A stretch of 64,000 nucleotides of DNA from Streptomyces typhae (GTDB lineage Bacteria; Actinomycetota; Actinomycetes; Streptomycetales; Streptomycetaceae). The position numbers were made by a program, and so were the translations under genes. A model generated the notes under the pieces. The model saw only the letters and a program-made list of their open reading frames with translations. It had not been told where the DNA came from and made no database searches. Shown here piece by piece: positions 5,651 to 34,922 of the stretch. The stretch is taken from assembly GCF_009755605.1 (NCBI RefSeq), contig NZ_WPNZ01000010.1, positions 248,001 to 312,000 on the forward strand, in the 5' to 3' direction. Within the stretch, counting starts at the first letter, position 1. Each line of letters begins with the position of its first letter.

Positions 5651-7930
5651 ATGGCAAGCAAGCCGCCCAAGGGCGATCCGGTCCAGGACGCGCCCCAGGT
5701 CACCGAGGCGCAGCACGCCGCGGCCGGGCTGCCGGCCATCGGTCACACCCTGCGGATCGCCCAGCGCCAGATGGGCGTGCGGCGCACGGCGCTCACGCTC
5801 CTGCGCGTCAATCAGAAGGACGGGTTCGACTGCCCCGGCTGCGCCTGGCCCGAGCCGGAGCACCGGCACACGGCGGAGTTCTGCGAGAACGGCGCGAAGG
5901 CCGTCGCCGAGGAGGCGACCCTGCGCCGCGTCGCCCCGGACTTCTTCGCCGCGCACCCCGTGGCCGACCTCGCCACCCGCAGCGGGTACTGGCTGGGGCA
6001 GCAGGGCCGCCTCACCCACCCCATGTATCTGGCCGAGGGAGCCGACCGCTACGAGCCGGTGTCGTGGGAGCGCGCCTTCGACATCGTCGCCGAGGAGCTT
6101 GCCGCCCTCGGCTCCCCCGACGAGGCCCTCTTCTACACCTCGGGGCGCACGAGCAACGAGGCGGCGTTCCTGTACCAGCTGTTCGCCCGCGAGCTGGGCA
6201 CGAACAACCTGCCCGACTGCTCGAACATGTGCCACGAGTCGTCGGGCTCGGCGCTCACGGAGACCCTCGGCGTCGGCAAGGGCAGCGTGCTGCTGGAGGA
6301 CCTCCACAAGGCCGACCTGATCATCGTGGCCGGGCAGAACCCCGGCACCAACCACCCGCGGATGCTGTCGGCCCTGGAGCAGGCCAAGCGCGGCGGCGCG
6401 CAGATCGTCACGGTGAATCCGCTGCCCGAGGCGGGCCTGGAGCGCTTCAAGAACCCGCAGACCCCCCAGGGCATGCTCAAGGGCACCGCTCTCACCGACC
6501 TGTTCCTGCAGATCCGCATCGGCGGCGACCAGGCCCTCTTCCGCCTCCTGAACAAGCTGATCCTGGAGACGGAAGGAGCCGTCGACGAGGACTTCGTCCG
6601 CGAGCACACCCACGGGTACGAGGACTTCGCCGCCGCCGCCCGCGCCGCCGACTGGGACGAGACGCTGACCGCGACCGGCCTCGACCGCGCCCGCATCGAG
6701 GAGGCGCTGCGCATGGTCCTCGCCTCCAGGCGCACGGTCGTGTGCTGGGCGATGGGCCTGACCCAGCACAAGCACGCGGTGCCCACGATCCGCGAGGTCG
6801 TCAACTTCCTGCTCCTGCGCGGCAACATCGGCAGGCCGGGCGCGGGCGTGTGCCCGGTGCGCGGCCACTCGAACGTGCAGGGCGACCGCACGATGGGCAT
6901 CTTCGAGCGGCCCGCGCCCGCGTTCCTCGACGCCCTGGAGAAGGAGTTCGGGTTCGCGCCGCCGCGCCACCACGGCCTGGACGTGGTGCGCGCCATCCGG
7001 GCGCTGCGCGACGGCGAGGCGAAGGTGTTCTTCGCGATGGGCGGCAACTTCGTCGCCGCCTCCCCCGACACCGACGTCACGGAGGCCGCGATGCGGCGCG
7101 CCCGTCTGACGGTGCACGTCTCCACGAAGCTGAACCGCTCGCACGCGGTGACCGGGGCGCGCGCCCTGATCCTGCCGACCCTCGGCCGTACCGAACGCGA
7201 CGTCCAGGGCAGCGGTGAGCAGTTCGTGACCGTCGAGGACTCCATGGGGATGGTGCACGCCTCGCGCGGGCGCCTGGAGCCCGCGAGCCCGCAGCTGCTG
7301 TCCGAGCCCGCCATCGTGTGCCGCCTCGCCCGCCGCGTCCTCGGCCCGGACTCGGCGACGCCCTGGGAGGAGTTCGAGAAGGACTACGCGTCGGTGCGCG
7401 ACCGCATCGCGCGCGTGGTGCCCGGGTTCGAGGACTTCAACGCGTGCGTCGCCCGGCCCGGCGGGTTCGCGCTGCCGCACGCCCCGCGTGACGAGCGCCG
7501 CTTCCCGACGGCCACCGGCAAGGCGAACTTCACGGCCGCGCCGGTCACGTACCCGAGCCTGCCCGAGGGCCGCCTCCTGCTGCAGACCCTGCGCTCCCAC
7601 GACCAGTACAACACCACGATCTACGGCCTGGACGACCGCTACCGGGGCATCAGGAACGGCCGCCGCGTCGTCCTGGTCAACCCCGACGACGCCCGTGCCC
7701 TCGGTCTCGCCGACGGCTCGTACACCGACCTGGTCAGCGAGTGGACGGACGGCGTCGAGCGGCGCGCGCCGGGCTTCCGCGTCGTGCACTACCCGACGGC
7801 GCCGGGCTGCGCCGCCGCGTACTACCCGGAGACCAACGTCCTGGTGCCGCTCGACGCGACGGCCGACACCAGCAACACCCCCGCCAGCAAGTCCGTGGTC
7901 GTGCGCCTGGAACAATCGACGACCGACTGA
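5651..7930 (+). CDS. FdhF/YdeP-family molybdopterin oxidoreductase
   Basis: The 759-residue product starts at ATG 5651, after GAGGAGCAGG. It belongs to the formate dehydrogenase alpha-like (YdeP) branch of molybdopterin oxidoreductases. Visible elements are the N-terminal Cys-rich segment FDCPGCAWPEP, FYTSGRTSNEAAFLYQLFAR, the cofactor region CSNMCHESSG, GQNPGTNHPRM, and the C-terminal aspartate-decarboxylase-like fold with LRSHDQYNTTIYG. No formate dehydrogenase beta or gamma subunit or fdhD lies next to it. It is probably a cytoplasmic stand-alone enzyme; the true substrate of the YdeP branch is unsettled. It is divergent from polA with only 124 bp between starts. Confidence 0.9.
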   Translation: MASKPPKGDPVQDAPQVTEAQHAAAGLPAIGHTLRIAQRQMGVRRTALTLLRVNQKDGFDCPGCAWPEPEHRHTAEFCENGAKAVAEEATLRRVAPDFFAAHPVADLATRSGYWLGQQGRLTHPMYLAEGADRYEPVSWERAFDIVAEELAALGSPDEALFYTSGRTSNEAAFLYQLFARELGTNNLPDCSNMCHESSGSALTETLGVGKGSVLLEDLHKADLIIVAGQNPGTNHPRMLSALEQAKRGGAQIVTVNPLPEAGLERFKNPQTPQGMLKGTALTDLFLQIRIGGDQALFRLLNKLILETEGAVDEDFVREHTHGYEDFAAAARAADWDETLTATGLDRARIEEALRMVLASRRTVVCWAMGLTQHKHAVPTIREVVNFLLLRGNIGRPGAGVCPVRGHSNVQGDRTMGIFERPAPAFLDALEKEFGFAPPRHHGLDVVRAIRALRDGEAKVFFAMGGNFVAASPDTDVTEAAMRRARLTVHVSTKLNRSHAVTGARALILPTLGRTERDVQGSGEQFVTVEDSMGMVHASRGRLEPASPQLLSEPAIVCRLARRVLGPDSATPWEEFEKDYASVRDRIARVVPGFEDFNACVARPGGFALPHAPRDERRFPTATGKANFTAAPVTYPSLPEGRLLLQTLRSHDQYNTTIYGLDDRYRGIRNGRRVVLVNPDDARALGLADGSYTDLVSEWTDGVERRAPGFRVVHYPTAPGCAAAYYPETNVLVPLDATADTSNTPASKSVVVRLEQSTTD

Positions 7931-21581: not shown

Positions 21582-23048
21582 TCAGCTCTTGAGGCGGACG
21601 AGGTTGGTGTGCTGGGGGACGCGGGGTGCGGGGGTGCGGGCCGCGGGGTCGGTGAGGCCGAAGGTGGTGAAGGCGGTGCGGTCGGGCAGGGGGTAGGGGT
21701 TGGTGCCGGTGAGGGTGTTGAGGATGGTGGCGCTGCGCCAGGCGGCGAGGCCGAGGTCGGGGGCGCCGACTCCGTGGGTGTGGCGTTCGGCGTTCTGTAC
21801 GTAGACGTTGCTGCCGGTGGCGGTGATGGAGGGGTCGAGGAGGAGGCGGTACTTGTCGTCGATGCGGGGGCGTTCGGCGGAGTCGCGGCGCATATAGGGG
21901 TCGAGGCCGGCGAGGAGCTGGTCGAGGGGGCGTTCGCGGTAGCCGGTGGCGAGGATGACGGCGTCGGTGGTGAGGCGGGAGCGGGTGCCTTCCTCGATGT
22001 GTTCGAGGTGGAGTTCGACGCGGGTGGTGGCCACGCGGCCCGCGGTGCGCACGGTGACGCCGGGGGTCAGGACGGTGTCGGGCCAGCCGCCGTGGAGGGT
22101 GCGCTGGTAGAGCTCGTCGTGGATGGCGGCGATGGTGTCGGCGTCGATGCCCTTGTGGAGCTGCCACTGGCCGGGGACGAGCCGGTCGCGTACGGGTTCG
22201 GGCAGGGCGTGGAAGTAGCGGGTGTAGTCGGGGGTGAAGTGTTCCAGGCCGAGCTTGGAGTACTCCATGGGGGCGAAGGCGGGGGTGCGGGCGAGCCAGT
22301 GCAGGCGTTCGGCGCCCGGGGGGCGGTGCCGGAGCAGGTCGAGGAAGATCTCGGCGCCGGACTGTCCGGAGCCGATGACGGTGATGTGGTCGGCGGTGCG
22401 GAGCCGGTCGCGGTGCAGCAGGTAGTCGGCGGAGTGGATGACGGGGACGGTGGGGGCGTCGGCGAGGGGTCTGAGGGGTTCGGGGACGTAGGGGGCGGTG
22501 CCGACGCCGAGGGCGATGTTGCGGGCGTGGGTGCGGCCGAGTGCTTCGGCTTCGCCGTCGGCGTCGAGCTGGGTGAAGTCGATGTCGAACAGGGAGCGTT
22601 CGGGGTTCCAGCGGACGGCGTCGATCTGGTGGCCGAAGTGCAGGGCGGGGAGGTTCTCACTGACCCAGCGGCAGTAGGCGTCGTACTCGGCGCGCTGGAT
22701 GTGGAAGCGCTCGGCGAAGTAGAAGGGGAACAGGCGCTGGCGGGAGCGGAGGTAGCTGAGGAACGACCAGGGGTTGGCGGGGTCGGCGAGGGTGACGAGG
22801 TCGGCGAGGAAGGGGACCTGGAGGGTGGCGCCTTCGATGAGGAGGCCGGGGTGCCAGTGGAAGGAGGGCCGCTGTTCGTAGAAGGCGGCGTCGATGCTGC
22901 CGCGTTCGGCGAGGGGCTGGGCGAGGGCGGCGAGGGACAGGTTGAACGGCCCGATGCCGATGCCGACCAGGTCGCGGGGTGCGGTGGAGGCGGTGGCTGC
23001 CTGCGCGGTCCTGTCGTGGCGGTGGGGCGTGTCGGGCGTGGCCGTCAT
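21582..23048 (-). CDS. FAD-dependent lysine/diamine N-hydroxylase (DesB-like)
   Basis: The 488-residue product starts at ATG 23048, overlapping the preceding decarboxylase stop by 4 nt (ATGA). It belongs to the IucD/SidA/DesB N-hydroxylating monooxygenases. The FAD motif GIGIGPFNLSL is near residue 30, LQVPFLADLVTLADP binds substrate and flavin, the NADPH motif is VIGSGQSGAEIF, and the C-terminal ATGYRERP is present. These enzymes N-hydroxylate lysine, ornithine, cadaverine or putrescine, the first committed step to hydroxamate siderophores. The decarboxylase partner suggests a diamine. No acyltransferase or NIS synthetase gene follows; the next gene converges. Confidence 0.88.
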   Translation of the reverse strand: MTATPDTPHRHDRTAQAATASTAPRDLVGIGIGPFNLSLAALAQPLAERGSIDAAFYEQRPSFHWHPGLLIEGATLQVPFLADLVTLADPANPWSFLSYLRSRQRLFPFYFAERFHIQRAEYDAYCRWVSENLPALHFGHQIDAVRWNPERSLFDIDFTQLDADGEAEALGRTHARNIALGVGTAPYVPEPLRPLADAPTVPVIHSADYLLHRDRLRTADHITVIGSGQSGAEIFLDLLRHRPPGAERLHWLARTPAFAPMEYSKLGLEHFTPDYTRYFHALPEPVRDRLVPGQWQLHKGIDADTIAAIHDELYQRTLHGGWPDTVLTPGVTVRTAGRVATTRVELHLEHIEEGTRSRLTTDAVILATGYRERPLDQLLAGLDPYMRRDSAERPRIDDKYRLLLDPSITATGSNVYVQNAERHTHGVGAPDLGLAAWRSATILNTLTGTNPYPLPDRTAFTTFGLTDPAARTPAPRVPQHTNLVRLKS

Positions 23049-24511
23049 CGGTGGCTGGTTCCTTCCACGAGCGTGAGCAGGGCCGTGAGGTGTTCGGTGC
23101 GGATGTGGGGGTTGAGGAGGGTGGCTTTGAGCCAGCGGCGGCCGTCGAGCTGTGCGCGGCCGAGGACGGCGGTGCCGTTGTCCAGGAGTGTCCTCCGGAC
23201 GTGGGCGATGTATTCGTCGTCGGCGTCGGTTGGCCGGAACAGGACGGTGCTGATGGCGGGCTTGTCGTAGAGGTCGAAACGGGGGTGGGCGGCGACGAGG
23301 TCGGCGAGTTCGCGGGCGCGGTCGCAGACCTGGTCGACGAGGGCGCCGAGTCCGGTGCGGCCGAGGGCCTTGAGGGTGACGGCGATCTTCAGGGCGTCGG
23401 GTCTGCGGGTGGTGCGCAGGGAGCGGCCGAGGAGGTCGGGCAGGCCTGCTTCGGTGTCGTCGTCGGCGTTGAGGTAGTCGGCGCGGTGGTCGAGGGCTCT
23501 GGTGTCGGCGGGGTCGCGGACGGTGAGGATGCCGGCGGCTGCGGGTTGCCAGCCGAGTTTATGCAGGTCGAGGGCGACGCTGTCGGCGCGTTCCAGGCCG
23601 TGGAGCTTGGGTCGGTGGGTGTCGCTGAAGAGGAGTCCGGCGCCGTAGGCGGCGTCGACGTGGAGTCGGGCGCCGTGGGTGGCGCACAGGTCGGCGATGT
23701 CGGTGAGGGGGTCGATGAGGCCGGCGTCGGTGGTGCCGGCGGTTGCGGCGACGAGGACGGTGGCGGCGGGTCCGCTGCGGCCGGCGCGGCCGGTGCGTTC
23801 GCTGGGTCCGCTGGGTCCGCTGGGTTCGGTGAGTTCGGTGAGTTCGCTGAGTTCGGTGAGGGCTTCGTCGAGGGCGGCGGGGTCGAGGACGCCGGCGGGT
23901 GCGGGCACGGTGACGGGTTCGGGCAGGCCGAGGAGCCAGGCGGCGCGGCGCAGGGAGTGGTGGGCGTTGGCGCCGGTGAGCAGCCGCAGGGGGTGTCCGC
24001 GGGTGGCGGCGTGTTCGCGGGCGAGGAGCAGGGCGAGCTGGTTGGACTCGGTGCCGCCGGTGGTGATCAGGGCGTCGCCGGTGCCGGGGCCGTGGACTTC
24101 GGCGGCGAGGGTGGCGGTGAGGAGCGCTTCGAGGGCGGAGGCGGCGGGCGCCTGGTCCCAGGAGTCCATGGAGGGGTTGAGGGCGGACGCGGCGAGGTCG
24201 GCGGCTGCGGCGATGGCGAGGGGCGGGCAGTGCAGGTGGGCCGCGCACAGGGGGTCCGCGGGGTCGGCGGCGCCTGCGGCGACGGCGCCGACCAGGGTGC
24301 GCAGGGCGTTCTCGGCGCCCGTTCCGTGGGTCGGCAGGAGGTCGCCCGCGGCTTCGCGGACGCGGGTGGCGACGGTGGCGGGGCCGCCGCTCGGGAGGGG
24401 GCCGCCGCGGGTCCCGGCGCCCTCGGTGAGGGCGCCGAGGGTTGTTTCGAGCAGGGGCCGCAGGGCGTCGGGGCCGTTCTTGCCTCCGGCGAGGGGCGGC
24501 GGGGTGCTCAT
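23045..24511 (-). CDS. PLP-dependent amino acid decarboxylase (DesA-like)
   Basis: The 488-residue product starts at ATG 24511, chosen for the strong GGAGGT site. It is a group II PLP decarboxylase: HCPPLAIAAAADLAASALNPSMDSWDQAP, TTGGTESNQLALLLAR, LHVDAAYGAG and LDLHKLGWQPAAAG, where the Lys binds PLP. The DLHKLGWQP form is that of DesA-type lysine decarboxylases rather than glutamate decarboxylase. It likely makes cadaverine (or another diamine) for the hydroxylase encoded next. A Glu/Leu/Ser/Thr-rich insertion near residues 215-245 coincides with 9-bp tandem repeats. No classic iron box is visible upstream. Confidence 0.86.
   Translation of the reverse strand: MSTPPPLAGGKNGPDALRPLLETTLGALTEGAGTRGGPLPSGGPATVATRVREAAGDLLPTHGTGAENALRTLVGAVAAGAADPADPLCAAHLHCPPLAIAAAADLAASALNPSMDSWDQAPAASALEALLTATLAAEVHGPGTGDALITTGGTESNQLALLLAREHAATRGHPLRLLTGANAHHSLRRAAWLLGLPEPVTVPAPAGVLDPAALDEALTELSELTELTEPSGPSGPSERTGRAGRSGPAATVLVAATAGTTDAGLIDPLTDIADLCATHGARLHVDAAYGAGLLFSDTHRPKLHGLERADSVALDLHKLGWQPAAAGILTVRDPADTRALDHRADYLNADDDTEAGLPDLLGRSLRTTRRPDALKIAVTLKALGRTGLGALVDQVCDRARELADLVAAHPRFDLYDKPAISTVLFRPTDADDEYIAHVRRTLLDNGTAVLGRAQLDGRRWLKATLLNPHIRTEHLTALLTLVEGTSHR
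23801..23859 (-). repeat. 9-bp tandem repeats within the decarboxylase gene
   Basis: About six and a half units, three of GCTGGGTCC type then three to four of GGTGAGTTC type, encode repeating SGP and ELT/ELS tripeptides on the minus strand. The frame is kept whatever the copy number. The repeats fall in a surface loop before the LVAATAGTTDAGL strand. Confidence 0.8.
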
Positions 24512-24655
24512 GGCGGTGACCTCCGGGTGCTCGGGTGGGGTCGCCGGCCTGGCCGCTGCGGTGTCCGGCTCGCCCGGAGAGCTCAACGATGCGGACTCGT
24601 AAGGGGTATTGCCCATGGGGGGAGTTTGCGGGGGGTAGGTGGGTGGTGCTAGGCC

Positions 24656-24769: not shown

Positions 24770-26599
24770 CTACCGCAGCCGTACCTCCCCCGCTCCCCCG
24801 GCTCCCTCCACCTCGAGGACCCACACCTCGTTGGTTCCCTCCTTCAGGACGGGGCCGGGTACGTACAGGGAGTGCTGGGGGCCGATGCCCCAGTAGCGGC
24901 CGAGGCAGAAGCCGTTGATCCAGGCGAAGCCGCGGCCCCAGCCGGGGAGTTCGAGGTCGGCGTCGCCGGGGTCGTGGACGGTGAGGGTGCCGCGGTGGAG
25001 GCCGGTCGCGCCGGGCAGGGGGCCGGTGTCGGCGGGGAGGTCGCGGACGGGGGCGGGGGTGTCGAAGGCGGTGAGGGGGAGGCCGACGGCCCGTACGCCG
25101 TGGACGTACTGGCGTTCGTGGAGGATGCCGCCGGTGACGCCCTTGGGTTCGCCGAGCCGGGGGCCGTAGTTGACGCGGCCCAGGGACTCCGTCCAGAGGG
25201 TGACGCGGGCGGGCCCGGCGACGGGTTCGGGCAAGGTCGGGGCGTCTTCGGTGAGGATGCCCGCGGGCAGGCCGTCGATGTGGACGACGGCGCGGTCGCG
25301 CAGTCCGCGCACGGTCAGCGGGTAGGGCTCGCGGGGTCCTGGGAGGTCGACGGTGTAGCGGACCAGGCCCCGGTCGACGCCGAGGTCCTCGAAGGTGGGC
25401 GGTACGGCGTGCTCGGTCTCGGGGGTGCCGAGGGCGTCGGCGAGGGTGTCCAGGGCGACGCGGTCGGTGAAGCGGGCGGTGGCGGGTGCGGTGAGGGCGG
25501 GCAGGGGTGGGGGCGGGTCGGGCAGCGGCGTGTCGGCGTAGGGGGCGAGGACTTTGCGGAACAGGTGGAACTTCTCGGTGGGGCGGCCGTGTTCGTCGAT
25601 GGGCGCGTCGTAGTCGTAGGAGGTGACGTCGGGTTGCAGGGTGCCGTCGTGCAGGCTGTCCCCGGCCCGGTTGGCGCCCGCCCAGCCGGCGAAGCTGGTG
25701 CCTCCGTGGGCCATGTAGAGGTTGACCGAGGCGCCGCACTCCAGGATCTCGCGGAGCGCGTCCGCGGCGTCCCGGGGGTCGCGTACGACGGTCCGGGTGC
25801 CCCAGTGGTCGAACCAGCCGCACCAGAACTCCATGCACATCAGGGGTCCTTCGGGGCGGTGGCGGCGCAGTGCGGCGAAGCCTTCGCGGGCGCGGGAGCC
25901 GAAGTTCACGGTGGCGAGGACGCCGGGGACGCCCCCGCCGGTCAGCATGTGGTCCTCGGGGCCGTCGGAGGTGAACAGTTCCGCGGTGACGCCGTGGGCG
26001 CGCAGGAGTTCGGTGAGGCGGGTCAGGTAGACCTGGTCGGAGCCGTAGCTGCCGTACTCGTTCTCGACCTGCACCATGATCACCGGCCCGCCGCGGTCGT
26101 GCTGGCGGGAGACGACCTGGGGCAGGAGCCGGGCGAACCAGCGTTCCACGTGCGCCAGATAGGTCTCGTCGCGGGTGCGGGCGCGCGCGCCGACCTCGGC
26201 CGTCAGCCAGTACGGCAGGCCGCCGTTGTCCCATTCGGCGCAGATGTAGGGGCCGGGGCGGACGATCGCCCACAGTCCCTCGGCGTGGGCGGCGTCGAGG
26301 AAGCGGCCGAGGGCGGTGCTGTCGTGCAGTTCGCCGGGGCGGGGTTCGTGCAGGTTCCAGGGGACGTACGTCTCGACGCAGTTGAGGCCCATGGCCCGGA
26401 GCATCGCGAGGCGGTGCCCCCACTGTGCCTCGTGCACGCGGAAGTAGTGCAGCGCCCCGGAGAGCAGCCGTACGGGCCGCCCGTCCAGTTCGAAGTGGTC
26501 CGCGCCCACCCTGAAGCTGTCGCCCCGGCCGCTGTAGGCCCGGCTGCTGTCGGCCCGGCCGCCGTCGCCCCGGCCGTTGTCGCTGTCGCTGTCGTCCAT
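24770..26599 (-). CDS. GH35 beta-galactosidase, probably intracellular
   Basis: The 609-residue product starts at ATG 26599, after GGGAGGG. The TIM-barrel begins with DGRPVRLLSGALHYFRVH and PWNLHEPRPGE. The clan GH-A acid/base Glu is in VENEYGSYG (near residue 181), and the nucleophile Glu in CMEFWCGWFDHWG (near 257). The C-terminal 200 residues are jelly-roll domains ending with WINGFCLGRYWGIGPQ, a family hallmark. No signal peptide is present; the first 28 residues are a Ser/Asp/Gly/Arg-rich tail. It removes non-reducing beta-galactose, often beta-1,3 or 1,4 linked. It is divergent from an AraC gene and shares an upstream element with the GH101 gene. Confidence 0.93.
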   Translation of the reverse strand: MDDSDSDNGRGDGGRADSSRAYSGRGDSFRVGADHFELDGRPVRLLSGALHYFRVHEAQWGHRLAMLRAMGLNCVETYVPWNLHEPRPGELHDSTALGRFLDAAHAEGLWAIVRPGPYICAEWDNGGLPYWLTAEVGARARTRDETYLAHVERWFARLLPQVVSRQHDRGGPVIMVQVENEYGSYGSDQVYLTRLTELLRAHGVTAELFTSDGPEDHMLTGGGVPGVLATVNFGSRAREGFAALRRHRPEGPLMCMEFWCGWFDHWGTRTVVRDPRDAADALREILECGASVNLYMAHGGTSFAGWAGANRAGDSLHDGTLQPDVTSYDYDAPIDEHGRPTEKFHLFRKVLAPYADTPLPDPPPPLPALTAPATARFTDRVALDTLADALGTPETEHAVPPTFEDLGVDRGLVRYTVDLPGPREPYPLTVRGLRDRAVVHIDGLPAGILTEDAPTLPEPVAGPARVTLWTESLGRVNYGPRLGEPKGVTGGILHERQYVHGVRAVGLPLTAFDTPAPVRDLPADTGPLPGATGLHRGTLTVHDPGDADLELPGWGRGFAWINGFCLGRYWGIGPQHSLYVPGPVLKEGTNEVWVLEVEGAGGAGEVRLR

Positions 26600-26654
26600 C
26601 GTGTCCCTCCCGATCCCTGCTGCGGCCACGATTGCCTCTGGCGGGCGGCACGGT

Positions 26655-26683
26655 CCATGGACAAAGATCGAGCCGGGTTGGAC
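26655..26683 (-). promoter_or_regulatory. Putative AraC-type operator upstream of the GH35 gene
   Basis: In the GH35 orientation the element reads GTCCAA, 12 bp, then TTTGTCCATGG. Two direct GTCCA half-sites are thus 21 bp apart, two helical turns, 56-84 bp before the start codon. Nearly the same sequence occurs before the GH101 gene. The AraC gene at 26781 diverges from this spacer and is the obvious candidate regulator. Confidence 0.55.
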
Positions 26684-26780
26684 GCAGTGATCGGGCGGCC
26701 GCCCGGCGGCGACGCGGTGACGGCGGCGGGCACGCGGTGGTGGCACCGTCGGGCGATCGGGAGGAAAGGGGCAGCCGCGG

Positions 26781-27683
26781 ATGTACCACACCTGGATGCG
26801 GTATTTCACTCCGAGCCCTGTGCATCACCGGCTCGGTCTGGTGTGTCTGGGCGTGGGCCTGCAGCACGGCACGCTCCCGGAGGTCGGGCCGCGCACCCTC
26901 GACCATCACGTCGCCCTCGTCGTCAGCGCGGGCAGCGGCTGGTTCCGGGCTCCCGACGGGCGGCGCAGGGCGGTCACGGCGCCCGCCCTGATCTGGCTCT
27001 CGCCGGGGGTGCCGCACCACTACGGCGCGGACGCGGAGACCGGCTGGGACGAGTGCTTCGTGGACTTCACAGGCCCGGCGGCGGCGACGTACACGGAGCT
27101 CGGCTACATCGACCCGGACCGGCCCGTGGTGCCGCTGGCCGACCCGGACGCGGCCCGTGCCGTCGTCGGCCGCATCGCCCGCGCCGCCCGCCGCGGCAAC
27201 CCCCTCCTGGAGGTGGAGACCAGCGCGGCGGTGCACGAGCTGCTCGTCGCGCTGCGCCGGGCCCGCGCCGACATGGCCCCCGACGGCGACCCCGTCCTGC
27301 AGTCCCTGGCCCGGGACGCGTTCACGGCGCTCTCGGTGACCGAGCACGCGGCGCGGCACGGCATGACGCCCGCCGAACTGCGCACGGCCGTGCGCCGTGG
27401 CGCGGGGTGCAGCCCCAAGGACTATCTCCTCGGCATCCGGCTCGGCCGGGCCAAGGAACTGCTCGCGGCCACCGAGCTGCCCGTCGCCGCGATCGCCAGG
27501 CGGGTCGGCTACGACGACCCGGCCTACTTCTCGCGGCTCTTCACCCGCCGTGTCGGGACGGCTCCGGTGCGCTTCCGTGCGCAGCAGGGGCGGGCGGTGC
27601 CGGGCGGCTGGTCGCAGCAGGTGCCCGATCCCGAACATCCGCCCACTCTGCCGTCCTTCGGCGGTGCGCCCGAGGGCACGTAG
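26781..27683 (+). CDS. AraC-family transcriptional regulator
   Basis: The product has 300 residues from ATG 26781. The N-terminal half is a cupin sensor domain (residues about 15-160; PRTLDHHVALVVSAGSGWF, IWLSPGVPHHYGADAE) of the type that binds sugars. The C-terminal 100 residues hold two helix-turn-helix units; the second is RLGRAKELLAATELPVAAIARRVGYDDPAYFSRLFTRR with the AraC signature. It lies head-to-head with the GH35 gene, 181 bp between starts, and probably activates that gene, and by shared sites GH101, in response to a galactose-containing sugar. The inducer is unknown. Confidence 0.9.
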   Translation: MYHTWMRYFTPSPVHHRLGLVCLGVGLQHGTLPEVGPRTLDHHVALVVSAGSGWFRAPDGRRRAVTAPALIWLSPGVPHHYGADAETGWDECFVDFTGPAAATYTELGYIDPDRPVVPLADPDAARAVVGRIARAARRGNPLLEVETSAAVHELLVALRRARADMAPDGDPVLQSLARDAFTALSVTEHAARHGMTPAELRTAVRRGAGCSPKDYLLGIRLGRAKELLAATELPVAAIARRVGYDDPAYFSRLFTRRVGTAPVRFRAQQGRAVPGGWSQQVPDPEHPPTLPSFGGAPEGT

Positions 27684-27694
27684 GCTCAGCTGCC

Positions 27695-28057
27695 ATGACC
27701 ACTCACCACACCAGTGACGACAACGGCGCCACCGGCACGGGGGCGGCGGAGGGCGGCGGCGTCGACCCCGCCGTGCGCGCCGAGCTGTCCCGCCTACGGG
27801 ACAGCATCGACAACATCGACGCCGCGGTCGTCCACATGCTCGCCGAGCGCTTCAAGTGCACCCAGCAGGTCGGCCACCTCAAGGCCAATCACCAGCTGCC
27901 GCCCGCCGACCCGGCCCGTGAGGCCCGTCAGGTCGCCCGCCTCCGCCAGCTCGCCGAGAACGCCAAGCTGGACCCCGCCTTCGCCGAGAAGCTCCTGAAC
28001 TTCATCATCGGGGAGGTGATCCGGCACCACGAGAGCATCGCGGACGGCAACCGCTGA
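27695..28057 (+). CDS. Chorismate mutase (AroQ type)
   Basis: The 120-residue product starts at ATG 27695, 11 bp after the AraC stop. The AroQ helical domain runs from about residue 26: ELSRLRDSIDNIDAAVVHMLAERFKCTQQVG with the conserved Arg and Lys, then the second and third helices AREARQVARLRQLAENAKLDP and FLNFIIGEVIRHHESI. It converts chorismate to prephenate for Phe/Tyr synthesis. The short length and free-standing form match the actinobacterial cytosolic enzyme. It might be co-transcribed with araC, though the functions look unrelated. Confidence 0.9.
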   Translation: MTTHHTSDDNGATGTGAAEGGGVDPAVRAELSRLRDSIDNIDAAVVHMLAERFKCTQQVGHLKANHQLPPADPAREARQVARLRQLAENAKLDPAFAEKLLNFIIGEVIRHHESIADGNR

Positions 28058-28141
28058 GGGGCGTGCGGACCGGCCGCCGCGCATCCGGGACGGCGGTACC
28101 CGCACTGACGGGCGCACGGCGGGATCAGGCACCATGGCCAG

Positions 28142-30646
28142 ATGTCCGTTCTGACGCGCGACGAAGCGCAGACCCGAGCCCAGCTCCTCGACGTATGGCG
28201 GTACGAGGTCGATCTCGACCTGACCACCGGCGAGGACACCTTCGACTCCCGCACGGTGATCACCTTCAGCGCCGCGGCGGACGGCGACACCTTCGTCGAG
28301 TTGAAGCCCGCACGGCTGCGCTCCGTCACGCTCGACGGCACCGCCCTGGACCCGGCGGACCTGGACGGCAACAGGCTGCCGCTGCGCGGTCTGACCGCGG
28401 GTGAGCACGAGCTGCGGGTCGACGCGGTCATGCGCTACTCCCGCACCGGTGAGGGCATGCACCGGTTCACGGATCCCGCCGACGGTGAGACGTACCTGTA
28501 CACGCAGTTGTTCCTGGAGGACGTGCAGCGCGTGTTCGCGGCGTTCGACCAGCCGGATCTGAAGGCCGTGTTCGCGCTGACGGTGACCGCGCCGGAGGGC
28601 TGGACGGTCCTCGCCAACGGTGTCGTCGAGGACCTGGGCGGGGGCCGCTGGCGGGCGGCGCCGACCCCGCTGATCTCCACGTATCTCGTCGCGGTCGCCG
28701 CGGGGCCCTGGCACTCGGTGCGCACCGAGCACCGCGGTCTGCCGTTCGGCCTCCACTGCCGCCGTTCCCTCGCGCCGTATCTGGACGCGGACGCCGACGA
28801 GCTGCTCGACGTGACCGTGGCGTGCTTCGACCGCTACCACGAGAAGTTCACCGAGCCCTATCCGTTCGACTCCTACGACCAGGCGTTCGTTCCGGAGTTC
28901 AACGCGGGCGCCATGGAGAACCCCGGCCTCGTCACCTTCAGGGACGAGTTCGTCTTCCGGTCGGCGGTGACGGACACCCAGCGCCAGAGCCGTGCCATGG
29001 TCGTCGCGCACGAGATGGCGCACATGTGGTTCGGGGACCTGGTGACGCTCGCGTGGTGGGACGACATCTGGCTGAACGAGTCCTTCGCCGAGTACATGGG
29101 CTACCAGACGCTGACCGAGGCGACCCGCTTCGCCGACACCTGGGTCGACTTCGGTGTCGCCCGCAAGCCGGGGGGTTACGACGCGGACCAGCGGCCCTCC
29201 ACGCATCCGGTGGCGCCGGATCCGGACGCGGTCCCCGACACGGCGTCGGCGATGCTCAACTTCGACGGCATCTCCTACGCCAAGGGCGCGAGCGCGCTGC
29301 GTCAGCTCGTGGCGTGGCTCGGCGAGAAGGACTTCCTGGCGGGCATCAACGCGCACTTCGCGCGGCACAGGTTCGGCAACGCCACGCTCGCCGACTTCAT
29401 CGACAACCTGGCCTCCGCGACGGACCGCGACGTGCGCGGCTGGGCGCAGGCGTGGCTGCGGACCACGGGCGTGGACACGTTCCGGCCCACCGTCACGCAC
29501 AGCGGCCGCGAGTGGACCCTCGCCCTGGACCGCGAGGGCAGCCGCCCGCACCGGGTCGCGGTGGGCGTGTACGACAGGGACCTGTCCGACGGGCGGTCCC
29601 TGGTCCTGCGGGAGCGGTTCGAGACGGACGTGCCGTCGCAGGAGGGGCCCGTGGCGCGCGACGGCGGGCGGCCCGCGCTCGTCGTGCCCAACGACCAGGA
29701 CCTGACGTACGCCAAGGTGCGCCTGGACGGGGTGTCGCAGGAGACGGTCCTCGCGTCGCTCTCCGGTGTTCCGGACGCGCTGACACGTGCGGTGCTGTGG
29801 AACGCGCTGCGCGACATGGTGCGCGACGGGGAGCTGGCGCCCGCCGCCTATCTGGAGGCGGCCCGCGCCCATCTGCCCGCGGAGAGCGACCTCGCCCTCG
29901 TCGCGGGTGTCCTCGGCTTCGCCGGTTTCGCCGTCGCCGACCGGTACACGCCCCTCGACGGCAGGACCGCCGCCCTGGCCACGATCGGCGCGCTGTGCGA
30001 GGACGTGATCCGGCGTACGGAGGATGGTTCGCAGCCGGGGCTGCGGCTCATCGCCGTACGGGGGGTCATCGACTCCGCGACGCAGCCCGAGCCCTTGGCG
30101 ACCTGGCTGTCGCAGGGTGCGGTGCCCGGTGGGCCCGAGCTGGATCCGGAGCTGCGCTGGCGGATCCTCGGCCGGCTCGCCGCGCTCGGCGCGGTCGACG
30201 AGAGTGCGATCGCGGCGGAGCTGCGCCGCGATCCGAGCGCGACCGGTCAGGAGGGTGCCGCGCTCTGCCGGGCCGCGCTGCCCGACGCGAGCGCGAAGCA
30301 GCAGGCGTGGGATGCCATGTTCGGGTCGGACGAGCTGTCCAACTACTTGTTCACGGCCACGGCCCAGGGTTTCTGGCAGCCCGAGCAGGAGGCCCTCGTG
30401 CGCACCTATGTGCCGCGTTTCTTCGAGGACGCGGTGGCGCTCGCGGACCGGCGCGGGCCCGCCATGGCGGAGGCCGCGGGGCGGTTCGCCTTCCCGAGGT
30501 CGGCCGTGGACGGGGAGACGCTGCGCCTGGGCGAGCGCTGCCTGGAGCGCACCGACGTCCTGCCCGCGCTTCGCCGCATCCTGGCCGATCAACTGGACGA
30601 ACTGCGGCGGGCGTTGCGGGTGCGGGACGGTGCCGGGCAGCGGTGA
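28142..30646 (+). CDS. pepN: Aminopeptidase N (M1 family)
   Basis: The product has 834 residues from ATG 28142, a normal length. The M1 core shows the exopeptidase motif GAMENPGLVTF, the zinc site HEMAHMWFGDLVTLAWWDDIWLNESFAEYMGY (HExxH plus downstream Glu) and the catalytic Tyr region GISYAKGASALRQL. The long C-terminal helical domain from about residue 520 is complete. It is a cytoplasmic zinc enzyme that removes N-terminal residues from peptides during protein turnover. It is probably transcribed alone. Confidence 0.96.
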   Translation: MSVLTRDEAQTRAQLLDVWRYEVDLDLTTGEDTFDSRTVITFSAAADGDTFVELKPARLRSVTLDGTALDPADLDGNRLPLRGLTAGEHELRVDAVMRYSRTGEGMHRFTDPADGETYLYTQLFLEDVQRVFAAFDQPDLKAVFALTVTAPEGWTVLANGVVEDLGGGRWRAAPTPLISTYLVAVAAGPWHSVRTEHRGLPFGLHCRRSLAPYLDADADELLDVTVACFDRYHEKFTEPYPFDSYDQAFVPEFNAGAMENPGLVTFRDEFVFRSAVTDTQRQSRAMVVAHEMAHMWFGDLVTLAWWDDIWLNESFAEYMGYQTLTEATRFADTWVDFGVARKPGGYDADQRPSTHPVAPDPDAVPDTASAMLNFDGISYAKGASALRQLVAWLGEKDFLAGINAHFARHRFGNATLADFIDNLASATDRDVRGWAQAWLRTTGVDTFRPTVTHSGREWTLALDREGSRPHRVAVGVYDRDLSDGRSLVLRERFETDVPSQEGPVARDGGRPALVVPNDQDLTYAKVRLDGVSQETVLASLSGVPDALTRAVLWNALRDMVRDGELAPAAYLEAARAHLPAESDLALVAGVLGFAGFAVADRYTPLDGRTAALATIGALCEDVIRRTEDGSQPGLRLIAVRGVIDSATQPEPLATWLSQGAVPGGPELDPELRWRILGRLAALGAVDESAIAAELRRDPSATGQEGAALCRAALPDASAKQQAWDAMFGSDELSNYLFTATAQGFWQPEQEALVRTYVPRFFEDAVALADRRGPAMAEAAGRFAFPRSAVDGETLRLGERCLERTDVLPALRRILADQLDELRRALRVRDGAGQR

Positions 30647-30851
30647 GGGGGGCCTCGGTCGCTCGGCCTAGGTCCGCGGTCCCGGCCGTCCGGGGGGTGA
30701 TCTCCGTCAAGGTGACGATCCGGTGGCCGTGCGGCGCTGCCTAGGGTCGATCTTGACGGCGTGCGGCGGGCCGGGGCGGCACAGCCCCGGTGCGCGCCGG
30801 GCCGGGGCGGATCCGCCGCGGGCCGTGCCGTCCCGAACCCGAGGAGTTCCT

Positions 30852-31712
30852 GTGATCGTCGTGACCGGTGCCACCGGCAATGTGGGCCGTGCCCTCGTCG
30901 CCCGGCTCGCCGCCGAGGGCGTGCCCGTGCGGGCCCTGACCCGGGACCCGGCGCGTGCGGGTGCCCTGCCCGCGGGCGCCGAGGCGGTCCGCTTCGCGCC
31001 GACGGCCGAACCGGCCGCCATGGCCGGCGCGTTCGCGGGTGCCACCGGGCTGTTCCTGCACCTGGCGGCGGGTGGCGACCACACCGCGGCGCTCCTCGAT
31101 GCCGCGCGTGCCGGTGGTGTCCGGCACGTCGTCGTCCTCTCGTCGATCATCGTCGACCACGACGAGGCCGCCGGGCATCCCCTGTACGACGCGCACGCGG
31201 CGCTGGAGGGGCACGTGCGGGCCAGTGGCCTCGGCTGGACGTTCCTGCGGCCCGGGGCCTTCAGCACCAACGCGCGGCAGTGGGCGGCGCAGATCCGTGC
31301 CGGTGACACGGTCCGCGGTCCGTTCGCGAAGCTGCGTCTGACGCCGGTCCACGAGGACGACATCGCCGCGGTCGCCGCCCGTGCCCTGCTCGACCCGGCG
31401 GCGCACACGGGCGTCGCGCACAGCGTCACCGGGCCCGCCGCCCTCACCACCGAGGAGCAGGTCCGGCAGGTGGGCCGGGCCCTCGGCCGGGACCTGCGGT
31501 ACGTGGAGGTCGCGCCGGACGAGGTGACGCCCGACATGTTCCCGCACATCGAGCCGGAGATGCTGCCGGTGTTCCTGGCGTCCCTCGGCGCCGCCGTCGA
31601 CAGTGACCCCGACCTGACGGCCACCGTGCGGGAGGTCACCGGACGTCCGGCGCGGACGTTCGCCCAGTGGGCCGAGGAGCACGCCGACGACTTCCGCGCG
31701 GGGGCCGCCTGA
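30852..31712 (+). CDS. NmrA-like NAD(P)-binding protein
   Basis: The 286-residue product starts with GTG at 30852 after GAGGAG. IVVTGATGNVGRALVARL is a GxxGxxG dinucleotide fold; VVLSSIIVDHDEAAG and GWTFLRPGAFSTNARQW follow as in NmrA/atypical SDR proteins. The usual SDR catalytic Tyr-x-x-x-Lys is not evident, so it may be a redox sensor rather than a dehydrogenase. It is convergent with the GH101 gene (17 bp between stops). Function is not known. Confidence 0.85.
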   Translation: MIVVTGATGNVGRALVARLAAEGVPVRALTRDPARAGALPAGAEAVRFAPTAEPAAMAGAFAGATGLFLHLAAGGDHTAALLDAARAGGVRHVVVLSSIIVDHDEAAGHPLYDAHAALEGHVRASGLGWTFLRPGAFSTNARQWAAQIRAGDTVRGPFAKLRLTPVHEDDIAAVAARALLDPAAHTGVAHSVTGPAALTTEEQVRQVGRALGRDLRYVEVAPDEVTPDMFPHIEPEMLPVFLASLGAAVDSDPDLTATVREVTGRPARTFAQWAEEHADDFRAGAA

Positions 31713-31729
31713 GGGCTCCCCGGCGTGCG

Positions 31730-34700
31730 CTACACCTCCCGCACCTCGAACGTGTCCAGGACGAACTCCGCCTTGCCGTCGTCGCCGACCTTCCGCAGTC
31801 CGACCCAGGCCTCGCCGTCGGCGGGAGCGGTGAACTCGTAGGACAGCGCGGTCGGCGCGGTGGCCACGGGCAGGGCCTCGCGGGACAGTTCGCGCGCTCC
31901 GGGCTCGTCCACGGCCGTCACCCAGGCGTACTGCCCGGCCTTCTCGTTCTCGTACCGGAACGAGACCCGGTAGCGTCGGCCCGCCGTGAAGCGGACCGTG
32001 TGCGGGACGGTGCGGTGGACGAGGCCTTTGTTCTCGCCGCGGGACTTCAGGGACTGGGTGCCGTCCACGACGTCGTCGACGGCTTTGCCGTTCCAGCCGC
32101 GCTGGGTGTACGGGGCGTGCCGCTGCGCGATGTGGGTGCGCGGATCGGTGGCGCCCCCGGCGTCGCCCTTGACGAACGGGCCCCAGCCCTGCGGCACGTC
32201 CTCGAAGTCCTCGCGGGCGAGCACGCCCCGGCCGAGGGGCGGCCGTGCGCCGGTGGCGACGACGCGCACGTTGTCGAACCGCACCTGGGCGTCGCCCGCG
32301 TCGGCGCGCAGCGCGAGGTGCACCGGGCCGCCGCCGTCGGGGACGGTGAAGTACGTGAACAGGCGCTGGAAGCGGGTGCCGTGCTTGCGGTCGGCGGCGA
32401 CGAAGTTGACCGCGGTGGAGGTGTGCGTCCAGTTGGCGGCGGTGACGCCGTCGGCGGTGTGCACCTCCAGGGCGGCGCGGCGCCGCTGCCCGGCCTTCTC
32501 CCCCACTTCGACCTGCACGGACGCGGCGTACGTACCGGGCTTGAGGCGGCGCAGGCGCTGGCTGACGGTGGCGGCGGTACCGGCGGCGATCACCAGTTCG
32601 TGGTCGCCGAGCTCGCTGCGTTCGACGGTGGCGGGTCCGGTGACGTGCCAGGCGTCGAGGTTCCCGGCGTGGAAGCCGGGGTCGCGCAGGGGTGTGCCCT
32701 GGCCCCAGTCGGGGTCGGGGGCGCGCCGGACGCGGGCGCGGTGGACGACGTAGGGCTGCCGGGCGGCGGCGTCGAGGGTGATCCTCCCGCCGCGTACGGG
32801 GATGTCGGCGACGAAGGCGCGGCCCTGGTCGGTGAGGCGGTGGAGGGCGACCTCGCGCAGGTGCGACCAGCCCTCGGGCAGGGTCCAAGTGGTCTCGCCG
32901 CCGCGCGGGTTGTAGTGGTAGAGCTTCTTCGGGTCGGTGGGCCTGCGCGGCTCCCAGGGCAGCAGATAGGTGCCGTTGTCGTAGACGAGGTGGCCGTCGG
33001 TGGTGACGCGCCGGGTGCCGTCGGCGTCGGTGACGGAGGTGGCGCCGGTGCCGAAGAACGTGATCTCGTGCTCGGTCCAGGACTTGATGGGCTGCGCCTG
33101 GAGGTACTTGGCGGGCAGCGCGTGCGTCCAGATCAGGTCGTAGAAGGCGTTCCAGTCGGTCTTGCCGGTCCAGCCGGAGAAGGTGCCCATGCGGGCGGCG
33201 CCGAGCAGGGTGGGCCACTTGTCGGCGAAGACGTCCTTCTGGTGGTGGCGGATGAAGCGGATCAGCCGGGAGTTGATGCCGCGGGAGGTGTCGGGGCCGT
33301 AGTCGGTCTCGGTGGCCCAGTGCGACCACAGGGCGGAGCGTTCGAAGCCGTGGCCCCATTCGCTGGTGACCATCCAGCCCTGTTCGCGCAGGGTGCGCTG
33401 GAGGCGGTCGGAGGTCCAGCCGGACTCGCGGAACACGTCGATGTAGAGGGTGTTGAGGGCCGGGTGGGTCTCGCGGCGCAGATCGGCGAGGCGGCGCACG
33501 ATGTCGCCGGAGACGAGGTCGCGGCGCTGGTCGATGCGGTAGCTCTGGTCGAGCCAGTCCCACTGCTCGTCGCTCTTGTCGACGAGCTTGTCGGAGAAGG
33601 CGTTCGCGACGGGGTAGGACTCGGTGGCGTTGATGTGCACGCCGAAGTCGCTGTTCCACTTGGCGCCCTCGGCGAGGAGGGTGTTGAGGTCGGCGAGGCC
33701 GCCCGCGCGGGTGTTGTGGTTCCCGGCGTAGTCCGGGTGCGCGGAGTCGTGGCCCTCGGACTGGTAGCCCTTGAGGAGGGTGTACTGGCGCAGTCCGTCG
33801 GTGGCGAGGTGGACGCGCTTGACGTCGTCGAGGGTCGCGAGGAACGGGTTGGTGGCCTGCGAGGCGAAGTTGAAGGGGATGTGCGGGACGACCCGCAGAT
33901 GCTGCTCGTCGGCGCCGAGCGGGGTGACCATGATGTCGCGGAAGGCGATGGCGGCGTCCTGCCAGTCGACCTTGCCGTCGCCGTTGCGGTCGCCGGTGAC
34001 GACGACGGTCGCGTACGGCAGCGGCTCGGTGGCGGCGACGGGGGCGGTGGCGGCGCGGTGCGTCCACTGGCCGGGGGTGAGGCTCGTCTCGACGTGGCCG
34101 TCCTTGCGTACGGTGTGGTGCCACAGGCGGCCGTTCTCCCAGGTGGTCTCGGAGGTGGGCTTGTCGTAGACGGTGTTGGTCTCGACGGCGCCGCCGAGCC
34201 CGTCGTGCGCGAGCACCGCGTACGCGCAGCCGGTCGGGACCCCGGCGGGCGTGTCGGGGCGCAGCGCGACGAGGGTGTCGCCGCTCTTGGCCTTGTCGAG
34301 CTGCACCTTCGCGGCGAGCAGGGTGGCGCCGGGCTGGTCGCTGCGGACGGAGAGCAGGGCGAGGCCGGGGACGCGCAGGGTGCCGACGCGCAGGGCGGCG
34401 GTGTCGGCGATCCTCGTGACGCGCCAGTGCACCTGGCGGCCCCGCACGGCGATCTCGACGTCGATGCGGGTGCCGCCGTCGAAGGTGAGGGTGTACATGG
34501 CGCGGTCGCCGCGCAGGGCCGTGGTGACCTTCGGGGTGTACTCCTTCTCGTCGATCAGGAGCGTGGTCACGGGGTCCGGCCGGCCGTGCAGGACGGCGCG
34601 GCTCGCGCGGTCGGTGTACGAGACGACGCGCGGGAAGCCGGTGGCGACGCGGACGTCGAGGGCGGACGAGCGCAGGACCGCCTCGTCGGGGGCGGCGTTC

Positions 34701-34828
34701 GTGGTGGCCGGGGCCGCGTGCGCGGTGCCCGCTCCGGTGATCCCGGCGATCCCGGCGATCGCCCCCGTGGCGACCACGGCTCTGCGGCTCGGCCCGGCCT
34801 CGGGCCCTGGCGTCTGTGACGACGGCAT
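31730..34828 (-). CDS. Secreted GH101 endo-alpha-N-acetylgalactosaminidase
   Basis: The 1032-residue product starts at ATG 34828, after AAAGGGG; an in-frame GTG at 34867 has no good ribosome site. The export signal has twin Arg (PSRRAVVATGAIAGIAG) and ends near AHA. The catalytic domain is recognised by FNFASQATNPFLATLDDVKR, KGYQSEGHDSAHPDY, NTLYIDVFRESGWTSDR (candidate nucleophile D464) and MVTSEWGHGFE (candidate acid/base E490). Carbohydrate-binding-like beta modules follow from about residue 700. GH101 enzymes release Gal-beta-1,3-GalNAc from Ser/Thr of mucin-type glycoproteins. A shared operator links it to GH35. Confidence 0.9.
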   Translation of the reverse strand: MPSSQTPGPEAGPSRRAVVATGAIAGIAGITGAGTAHAAPATTNAAPDEAVLRSSALDVRVATGFPRVVSYTDRASRAVLHGRPDPVTTLLIDEKEYTPKVTTALRGDRAMYTLTFDGGTRIDVEIAVRGRQVHWRVTRIADTAALRVGTLRVPGLALLSVRSDQPGATLLAAKVQLDKAKSGDTLVALRPDTPAGVPTGCAYAVLAHDGLGGAVETNTVYDKPTSETTWENGRLWHHTVRKDGHVETSLTPGQWTHRAATAPVAATEPLPYATVVVTGDRNGDGKVDWQDAAIAFRDIMVTPLGADEQHLRVVPHIPFNFASQATNPFLATLDDVKRVHLATDGLRQYTLLKGYQSEGHDSAHPDYAGNHNTRAGGLADLNTLLAEGAKWNSDFGVHINATESYPVANAFSDKLVDKSDEQWDWLDQSYRIDQRRDLVSGDIVRRLADLRRETHPALNTLYIDVFRESGWTSDRLQRTLREQGWMVTSEWGHGFERSALWSHWATETDYGPDTSRGINSRLIRFIRHHQKDVFADKWPTLLGAARMGTFSGWTGKTDWNAFYDLIWTHALPAKYLQAQPIKSWTEHEITFFGTGATSVTDADGTRRVTTDGHLVYDNGTYLLPWEPRRPTDPKKLYHYNPRGGETTWTLPEGWSHLREVALHRLTDQGRAFVADIPVRGGRITLDAAARQPYVVHRARVRRAPDPDWGQGTPLRDPGFHAGNLDAWHVTGPATVERSELGDHELVIAAGTAATVSQRLRRLKPGTYAASVQVEVGEKAGQRRRAALEVHTADGVTAANWTHTSTAVNFVAADRKHGTRFQRLFTYFTVPDGGGPVHLALRADAGDAQVRFDNVRVVATGARPPLGRGVLAREDFEDVPQGWGPFVKGDAGGATDPRTHIAQRHAPYTQRGWNGKAVDDVVDGTQSLKSRGENKGLVHRTVPHTVRFTAGRRYRVSFRYENEKAGQYAWVTAVDEPGARELSREALPVATAPTALSYEFTAPADGEAWVGLRKVGDDGKAEFVLDTFEVREV

Positions 34829-34892
34829 CAACGCACCCCTTTGTGGGACGGAATTCGTGTCGGTCACGATGCGCCGCGCGGGACGAGGGCGC

Positions 34893-34922
34893 CCATGGAC
34901 AAAGACGGGAGAGGTCTTGGAC
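34893..34922 (-). promoter_or_regulatory. Putative AraC-type operator upstream of the GH101 gene
   Basis: In the gene's orientation it reads GTCCAA, 13 bp, then TTTGTCCATGG. This is almost the same as the site at 26655-26683 and lies a similar distance from the start codon (65-94 bp). Half-sites are 22 bp apart. A spacer one base longer than its partner suggests independent sites, not a recent copy. Confidence 0.55.

Follow-up and report, generated by a model that had tools for sequence, protein, structure and literature searches.

Organization of the araC locus

This report concerns two nearly identical operator sites, and the araC-type regulator gene beside one of them, in a 64,000-nucleotide stretch of Streptomyces typhae DNA, positions 248,001 to 312,000 of contig NZ_WPNZ01000010.1 (hereafter the window). 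One site precedes a gene of glycoside hydrolase family 35 (GH35) and the other a gene of family 101 (GH101). The genes and operators are as follows.

24770..26599, minus strand: GH35 β-galactosidase gene, assigned by Pfam; nearest solved structures 4mad, 8h25 and 4e8c
26655..26683, minus strand: operator 1 (GH35), GTCCAA-N12-TTTGTCCATGG; left half-site 26678-26683, right half-site 26655-26665
26781..27683, plus strand: araC-type regulator gene, with AraC_binding (cupin) and HTH_18 domains
31730..34828, minus strand: GH101 endo-α-N-acetylgalactosaminidase gene, with five Pfam domains
34893..34922, minus strand: operator 2 (GH101), GTCCAA-N13-TTTGTCCATGG; left half-site 34917-34922, right half-site 34893-34903

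Both operators are on the minus strand, each directed into a glycosidase gene. A preliminary description of this DNA had reported a near-identical element with N12 and N13 spacers before GH35 and GH101, GTCCA half-sites forming direct repeats 21-22 bp apart, an araC gene diverging from the first site, and no other copy in the window. All of this is borne out: the element is present at the positions listed above, the half-sites are direct repeats with periods of 21 bp (N12 form) and 22 bp (N13 form), araC runs on the opposite strand from operator 1, and a pattern search of the whole window found no third copy. The distance to the start codon, given there as 56-94 bp, holds only at its lower end. 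The end of operator 1 lies 56 nt from the GH35 ATG (26599), whereas the end of operator 2 is separated by 65 nt from the likely GH101 ATG (34828); the 94 bp figure presumably came from another start codon.

Occurrence of the operator in the genome

The operator pattern was found in none of 100 dinucleotide shuffles of the window. In the 9.81 Mb genome, GTCCAA-N12/13-TTTGTCCATGG has two copies, before GH35 and before GH101, and the relaxed pattern GTCCAN{12,16}TTGTCCATG gives three matches, namely the two operators and one looser match. With up to three mismatches allowed genome-wide, only the two operators match perfectly; the N12 form yields 13 further matches as compared with 2 for a reversed-pattern control, and the N13 form yields 4 as compared with none. 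These 17 looser matches comprise fifteen with 3 mismatches and two with 2 (L303 and L304); the latter two were read, and both fall within open coding frames. The preliminary description had allowed for a motif scattered at random across the genome, and the two perfect sites, with far fewer matches for the reversed-pattern controls, do not agree with that possibility.

Conservation of the operator beside araC

The araC neighbourhoods were analyzed in two sets, one of 74 loci and one of 80 loci from named GTDB genomes, the latter chosen by the closeness of their araC genes. The sets share 7 GH35 and 3 GH101 upstream sequences, so that the distinct totals are 125 and 63, respectively. At no more than 2 mismatches, the site was present upstream of GH35 in 52/52 cases of the 74-locus set and 80/80 of the 80-locus set, and upstream of GH101 in 33/34 and 32/32. 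The distinct sequences beside araC that carry the site thus number 125 of 125 for GH35 and 62 of 63 for GH101, although these neighbourhood counts are not independent trials because the named set was picked by araC closeness and the genomes are related.

The regions in front of four neighbouring genes, encoding an M1 peptidase, a decarboxylase, a monooxygenase and a chorismate-mutase-like protein, served as controls and never matched with fewer than 5 mismatches (84 to 116 distinct sequences each). The region upstream of araC, read in its own direction, never matched with fewer than 4 (145 distinct sequences). The same holds for the four araC loci that have neither GH35 nor GH101, where no site with fewer than 4 mismatches was present, and, of the 20 araC genes without an adjoining GH35, 17 lacked any match with 3 mismatches or fewer, whichever strand was read. 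Rows left out of these comparisons comprise one GH101 (L107, where the gene start coincides with the edge of the locus; L108 has the same promoter), two M1 peptidase rows, and one row each for araC, the decarboxylase and the monooxygenase.

A chance repeat was considered and is ruled out by the shuffles, the genome scans, the reversed-pattern controls and the conservation.

At two loci, L088 (site 9861) and L299 (site 8461, genome G161), a GH101-type operator lies beside the araC-GH35 pair but no GH101 gene follows, which has the look of a lost GH101 whose operator stayed in place.

Distribution in the genus, family and class

AraC orthologues were assigned in 199 genomes of the genus at an identity of about 60% or more, with fragments counted. 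The strict site occurs in 101 of the 120 genomes with an orthologue as compared with 0 of the 79 without one, and the reversed-pattern control gave zero in all 199; the genomes are related, so these counts are not independent and neither they nor the Fisher values are tree-corrected. Family-wide, the pattern is present in 125 of 394 genomes, representing 5 of 17 genera. Conservation before the orthologous GH35 and GH101 genes, on which the preliminary description had made its proposal depend, therefore extends beyond the genus. Outside it, all 14 sites adjoin an AraC relative (60-77% identity), 8 of them before GH35 and 6 before GH101. Among 354 genomes from outside the family, taken in a class-wide draw, the pattern was detected in a single one (L381, genome G676, site at 5699), and a 51%-identical AraC is encoded about 1.8 kb from that site.

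Co-occurrence alone cannot name the binder, and the element might instead be recognized by another, for example global, regulator, the araC neighbour being incidental. A one-mismatch site in genome G114, in which no AraC orthologue was found, is consistent with such an arrangement. Against it stand the absence of the strict site from the 79 AraC-less genomes of the genus, the AraC relatives adjoining every site outside the genus, the AraC encoded near the lone site outside the family, and the geometry of the element, which fits an AraC-type dimer. A different binder is therefore very improbable, and the operator and its link to this AraC are as well supported as sequence evidence by itself allows.

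Promoter geometry

A hexamer resembling a -10 element follows each operator at the same distance.

26628..26633, minus strand: AATCGT, -10-like hexamer in the GH35 promoter, 23 nt downstream of the operator CCAT
34866..34871, minus strand: CATCGT, -10-like hexamer in the GH101 promoter, 23 nt downstream of the operator CCAT

For a wider comparison, 239 distinct sites were reduced to 130 whose downstream sequences were less than 80% identical. In 127 of these 130 non-redundant sites, CCAT is followed at 22-24 nt by the start of a NANNNT hexamer; 500 shuffles gave 6.4 such sites on average and never more than 14. In the first site collection the N12 and N13 forms did not differ in this register, and therefore it is the right half-site, not the left, that is tied to the promoter. 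The fixed distance to the -10-like hexamer in turn places the right half-site on or just beside the -35 region, where the hexamers appear weak by eye.

This geometry suggests activation rather than repression. The overlap of the right half-site with the -35 region would also suit a repressor, in which case the unliganded protein would block the polymerase and the ligand would release it. However, in the promoters that were read the site faces the target gene at a constant spacing from the -10 hexamer, the -35 hexamers seem weak by eye, and most two-domain AraC relatives are activators. Repression is accordingly regarded as improbable.

In 26 MFS (major facilitator superfamily), GH31, GH136-like and g14 GH35 genes, the start codon is located 4-7 nt behind the hexamer. 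This is where transcription should begin, and for that reason these 26 genes are probably leaderless.

The regulator and the enzymes

The regulator comprises an N-terminal cupin-like ligand domain (Pfam AraC_binding, E 5e-11) and a C-terminal double helix-turn-helix (HTH_18, E 4.2e-20; HTH_AraC, E 3.4e-8). Its best PDB sequence match is the DNA-binding domain of AraC, 2k9s. The AlphaFold2 model has a mean predicted local distance difference test score (pLDDT) of 87 and aligns with the DNA-binding domains of AdpA, MarA and SoxS. The best structural match of the ligand domain is BgaR (6nwh_A), with a Z score of 18.7 and a root-mean-square deviation of 2.5 Å over 156 aligned residues at 16% identity, followed by RhaR (Z 15.3) and AraC (Z 13.2); the Z scores were obtained by re-comparison of Foldseek matches. 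The BgaR-like fold of the model points to a β-galactoside ligand, although a common fold is no proof of a common ligand. A second AraC, with 46-50% identity to the one in the window, is found in genomes G105, G047, G050, G184 and G023.

The GH35 protein matches its Pfam family with an E value of 8.7e-108. Its QVENEYGSYG and MCMEFWxGWF blocks, which we take to be the acid/base and nucleophile regions of GH35, align with 4mad, 8h25 and 4e8c. By analogy to these nearest solved relatives, the enzyme is predicted to be BgaC-like with β-1,3-galactose specificity. No obvious signal peptide was noted by eye, and the enzyme is apparently cytoplasmic. The GH101 protein has the full set of five Pfam domains (Glyco_hydro_101, E 2.8e-123) and matches 3ecq with an E value of 2e-155, and its N-terminus, with an SRR motif, resembles by eye a twin-arginine translocation (Tat) signal.

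Further targets in other genomes

Thirteen sites of the genus were judged by their coordinates to lie outside the araC neighbourhood and its GH101 cluster, and all 13 were read. Ten precede MFS genes, two precede genes for right-handed β-helix proteins, and one precedes a GH31 gene. The GH31 protein is closest to α-N-acetylgalactosaminidases (α-GalNAcases; 6m76, E 5e-112; 7f7r, E 2e-111), the next group following at 6e-57. The strict pattern before GH31 is confined to G034 among 20 GH31 loci, and 16 of the 20 (G034 included) have an operator-like match with no more than 4 mismatches before the gene, in a scan that allowed gaps of 11-14 and had no shuffle control for that set.

The β-helix protein matches the model of the lacto-N-biosidase LnbX at an E value of 1.5e-25, far under the model cut-off. 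Its best PDB match is 7v6m, which carries a fibronectin-type name (E 5.5e-31), followed by LnbX itself (5gqc, E 1.5e-29). Both aspartates of LnbX, presumably the catalytic pair, are aligned in the L072 protein. Among 30 loci of this GH136-like type, five have a site with no more than 3 mismatches (none in L317 and L320, one in L319, two in L326 and three in L323). Locus L318 is truncated close to the start of the gene, and the GH136-like copy of G040 (L071/L320) is split by frame breaks.

Six of the family-wide sites away from araC were also read. Five precede MFS genes (L297, L300 and L382-L384). The sixth, at position 4276 of L296 (G430), has a sulfatase gene downstream (Pfam Sulfatase, E 1.3e-50) and a TAGGGT hexamer in register; this protein is a possible glycan sulfatase. 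The specificities of the targets are predicted by homology, and with the exception of the MFS, sulfatase and PhyH proteins they would all act on Gal-β-1,3-N-acetylhexosamine (Gal-β-1,3-HexNAc) or α-linked N-acetylgalactosamine (α-GalNAc).

A reversed repeat before unlinked GH101 genes

GH101 genes located away from araC were represented by 20 loci (L386-L405). The element CTTGGACT-N15-TTGGAC, which is the operator half-site reversed and again has a 22 bp period, occurs upstream in 16 of the 20, and TTGAC starts 27 nt behind it in 16/16. No reversed repeat was found upstream of GH101 in L397, L403, L404 and L405; it is missing in both AraC-less genomes among the 20 (G077 and G152) and also in the AraC-bearing G166 and G083. 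AraC is present in 37 of the 40 genomes whose GH101 is not beside araC, as compared with 41 of the 117 without any GH101, a comparison that is not tree-corrected and in which contig breaks make some linked GH101 genes (G081, G114) look unlinked. This regulator may use the reversed repeat as an additional operator, a suggestion offered as a lead only.

Interpretation

Taken together, the operators very probably belong to an AraC-family activator encoded at 26781-27683, which would govern a regulon for Gal-β-1,3-HexNAc glycans. The sequences establish that the elements exist, are conserved, accompany the regulator gene, keep a constant promoter spacing and precede genes of the families named; we infer the role of AraC as the binder, its ligand, the activation and the enzyme specificities. 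The regulator would bind a β-galactoside, most likely Gal-β-1,3-GalNAc or Gal-β-1,3-N-acetylglucosamine (Gal-β-1,3-GlcNAc) released from glycans. Two subunits would then bind to GTCCAA and TTTGTCCATGG, half-sites that form a direct repeat with a spacing of two turns of DNA, with the right-hand subunit against the weak -35 region, where it would recruit RNA polymerase. Secreted GH101 endo-α-GalNAcase would thereby be switched on and free Gal-β-1,3-GalNAc, and the apparently cytoplasmic GH35 β-galactosidase, switched on by the same protein, would split it. In other genomes the same switch would drive genes for GH31 α-GalNAcase-like and GH136-like lacto-N-biosidase enzymes and for MFS transporters. 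The mucin-type glycan regulon proposed in the preliminary description gains support from the operators before the GH31 and GH136-like genes and from the BgaR-like sensor domain.

Several observations weigh against this interpretation. The single GH101 miss beside araC is locus L101, where the site (5366) is located about 1.4 kb upstream of GH101. Degenerate antisense sites precede araC genes without GH35 in L096 (2 mismatches) and in L128 and L137 (3 each), so that the association of the site with the enzyme genes is general but not strict; these sites could be remnants of a GH35 operator that was lost. The strict site is lacking in 19 of the 120 AraC-bearing genomes of the genus, 14 of which have variants with 1-2 mismatches and four of which lack GH35 and GH101 beside araC; the remaining one, G022, has a truncated araC. 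In G114 the one-mismatch operator precedes GH101, and the contig breaks off shortly after this gene. The MFS target that was tested (L064) best matches efflux-type families, which the favoured model does not predict, and no disaccharide importer with a strict operator was found in the genome of the window. Finally, the site of G676, near the 51%-identical AraC, precedes a gene for a PhyH dioxygenase. The pathway can thus not be read from the operator by itself, which seems to stay with this AraC lineage while its target has changed at that distance.

At L101, the 1.4 kb gap would fit an inserted gene between the operator and GH101. An amidohydrolase gene is also present near the PhyH-type site in L381.

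The identity of the natural signal deserves separate consideration. With the same operator and regulator, the signal and substrate could be plant or microbial β-galactosides, lactose-like or galactan-derived, or galactose, and GH101 would then have joined a general β-galactoside regulon. The closest sensor fold is that of BgaR, a lactose sensor; GH35 enzymes take several β-galactosides; and many araC-GH35 loci have the site without an adjoining GH101 (80 GH35 as compared with 32 GH101 in the 80 named loci). GH101, however, is specific for core-1 O-glycans, the additional targets include GH31 α-GalNAcase-like and GH136-like lacto-N-biosidase genes, and unlinked GH101 co-occurs with AraC in the proportions given above. 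Such a general regulon is a serious contender but on balance unlikely, and a β-1,3-HexNAc signal is the likeliest among several β-galactosides.

Starting again from the Gal-β-1,3-HexNAc regulon, a broader proposal can be put forward tentatively, as a possibility well short of being probable. A single BgaR-like AraC sensor of Gal-β-1,3-HexNAc would control a regulon dispersed through the Streptomycetaceae, in which the core-1 (GH101 and GH31) and type-1 (GH136-like) routes are joined onto one intracellular GH35. Soil actinomycetes would then possess an inducible set of genes dedicated to O-glycans of animal or fungal type, and the same protein would read CTTGGACT-N15-TTGGAC.

Comparison with known systems

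An AraC-type switch is of a known kind, and it is the target set that is unusually coherent. In AraC of Escherichia coli bound at I1-I2 of araBAD, direct half-sites are about 21 bp apart and the promoter-proximal one lies against the -35 region, an arrangement shared by the operators described here. The half-site letters and the target pathway differ, and nothing found here points to DNA looping or to a repressing half-site at a distance.

BgaR-PbgaL of Clostridium perfringens likewise ties a regulator of AraC type, also by its fold, to a β-galactosidase gene. The identity is about 15-16% over the ligand domain and the bacteria are different; the comparison covers the ligand domain, not the operator, and the GH101/GH31/GH136-like target set is unlike that of BgaR-PbgaL. 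In the galacto-N-biose/lacto-N-biose pathway of bifidobacteria, a GH112 phosphorylase cleaves the disaccharide, in contrast to the GH35 hydrolase predicted here. The same disaccharides and one regulator are expected in both, but the bifidobacterial galacto-N-biose genes are predicted to be under NagR, which belongs to the ROK rather than the AraC family (PMC4746261). The bgaR-PbgaL pair has been used as a lactose-induced switch (PMC10312008).

The GH136 milk-oligosaccharide loci of Roseburia and Eubacterium also combine a GH136 lacto-N-biosidase with a disaccharide-splitting enzyme, a GH42 β-galactosidase taking the place of the phosphorylase in E. ramulus (PMC7335108). These are loci of gut Firmicutes with ABC importers, and the word AraC is absent from the main text of that paper. 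Mucin-type glycosidases, variably including GH101, have been reported in Streptomyces (PMC9120202). Among the literature matches listed, in a search whose coverage mostly excluded subscription papers, there was no description of the operator and no AraC regulator of Streptomyces GH35 or GH101; passages of PMC5583593 and PMC8857197 likewise do not describe the operator or regulator.

If the Gal-β-1,3-HexNAc regulon is real, a soil genus known for antibiotics would possess a dedicated control circuit for mucin-type glycans. This would explain why GH101 and GH35 travel together, and new targets could be predicted by the operator alone. The locus offers a promoter pair and a sensor with a directly testable ligand.

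Neighbouring genes

Adjoining GH35, at 21582-24616 of the window, are a monooxygenase-like and a pyridoxal-decarboxylase-like gene that have by eye the look of a desferrioxamine-type siderophore pathway. This siderophore-like gene pair is kept near the locus in many relatives.

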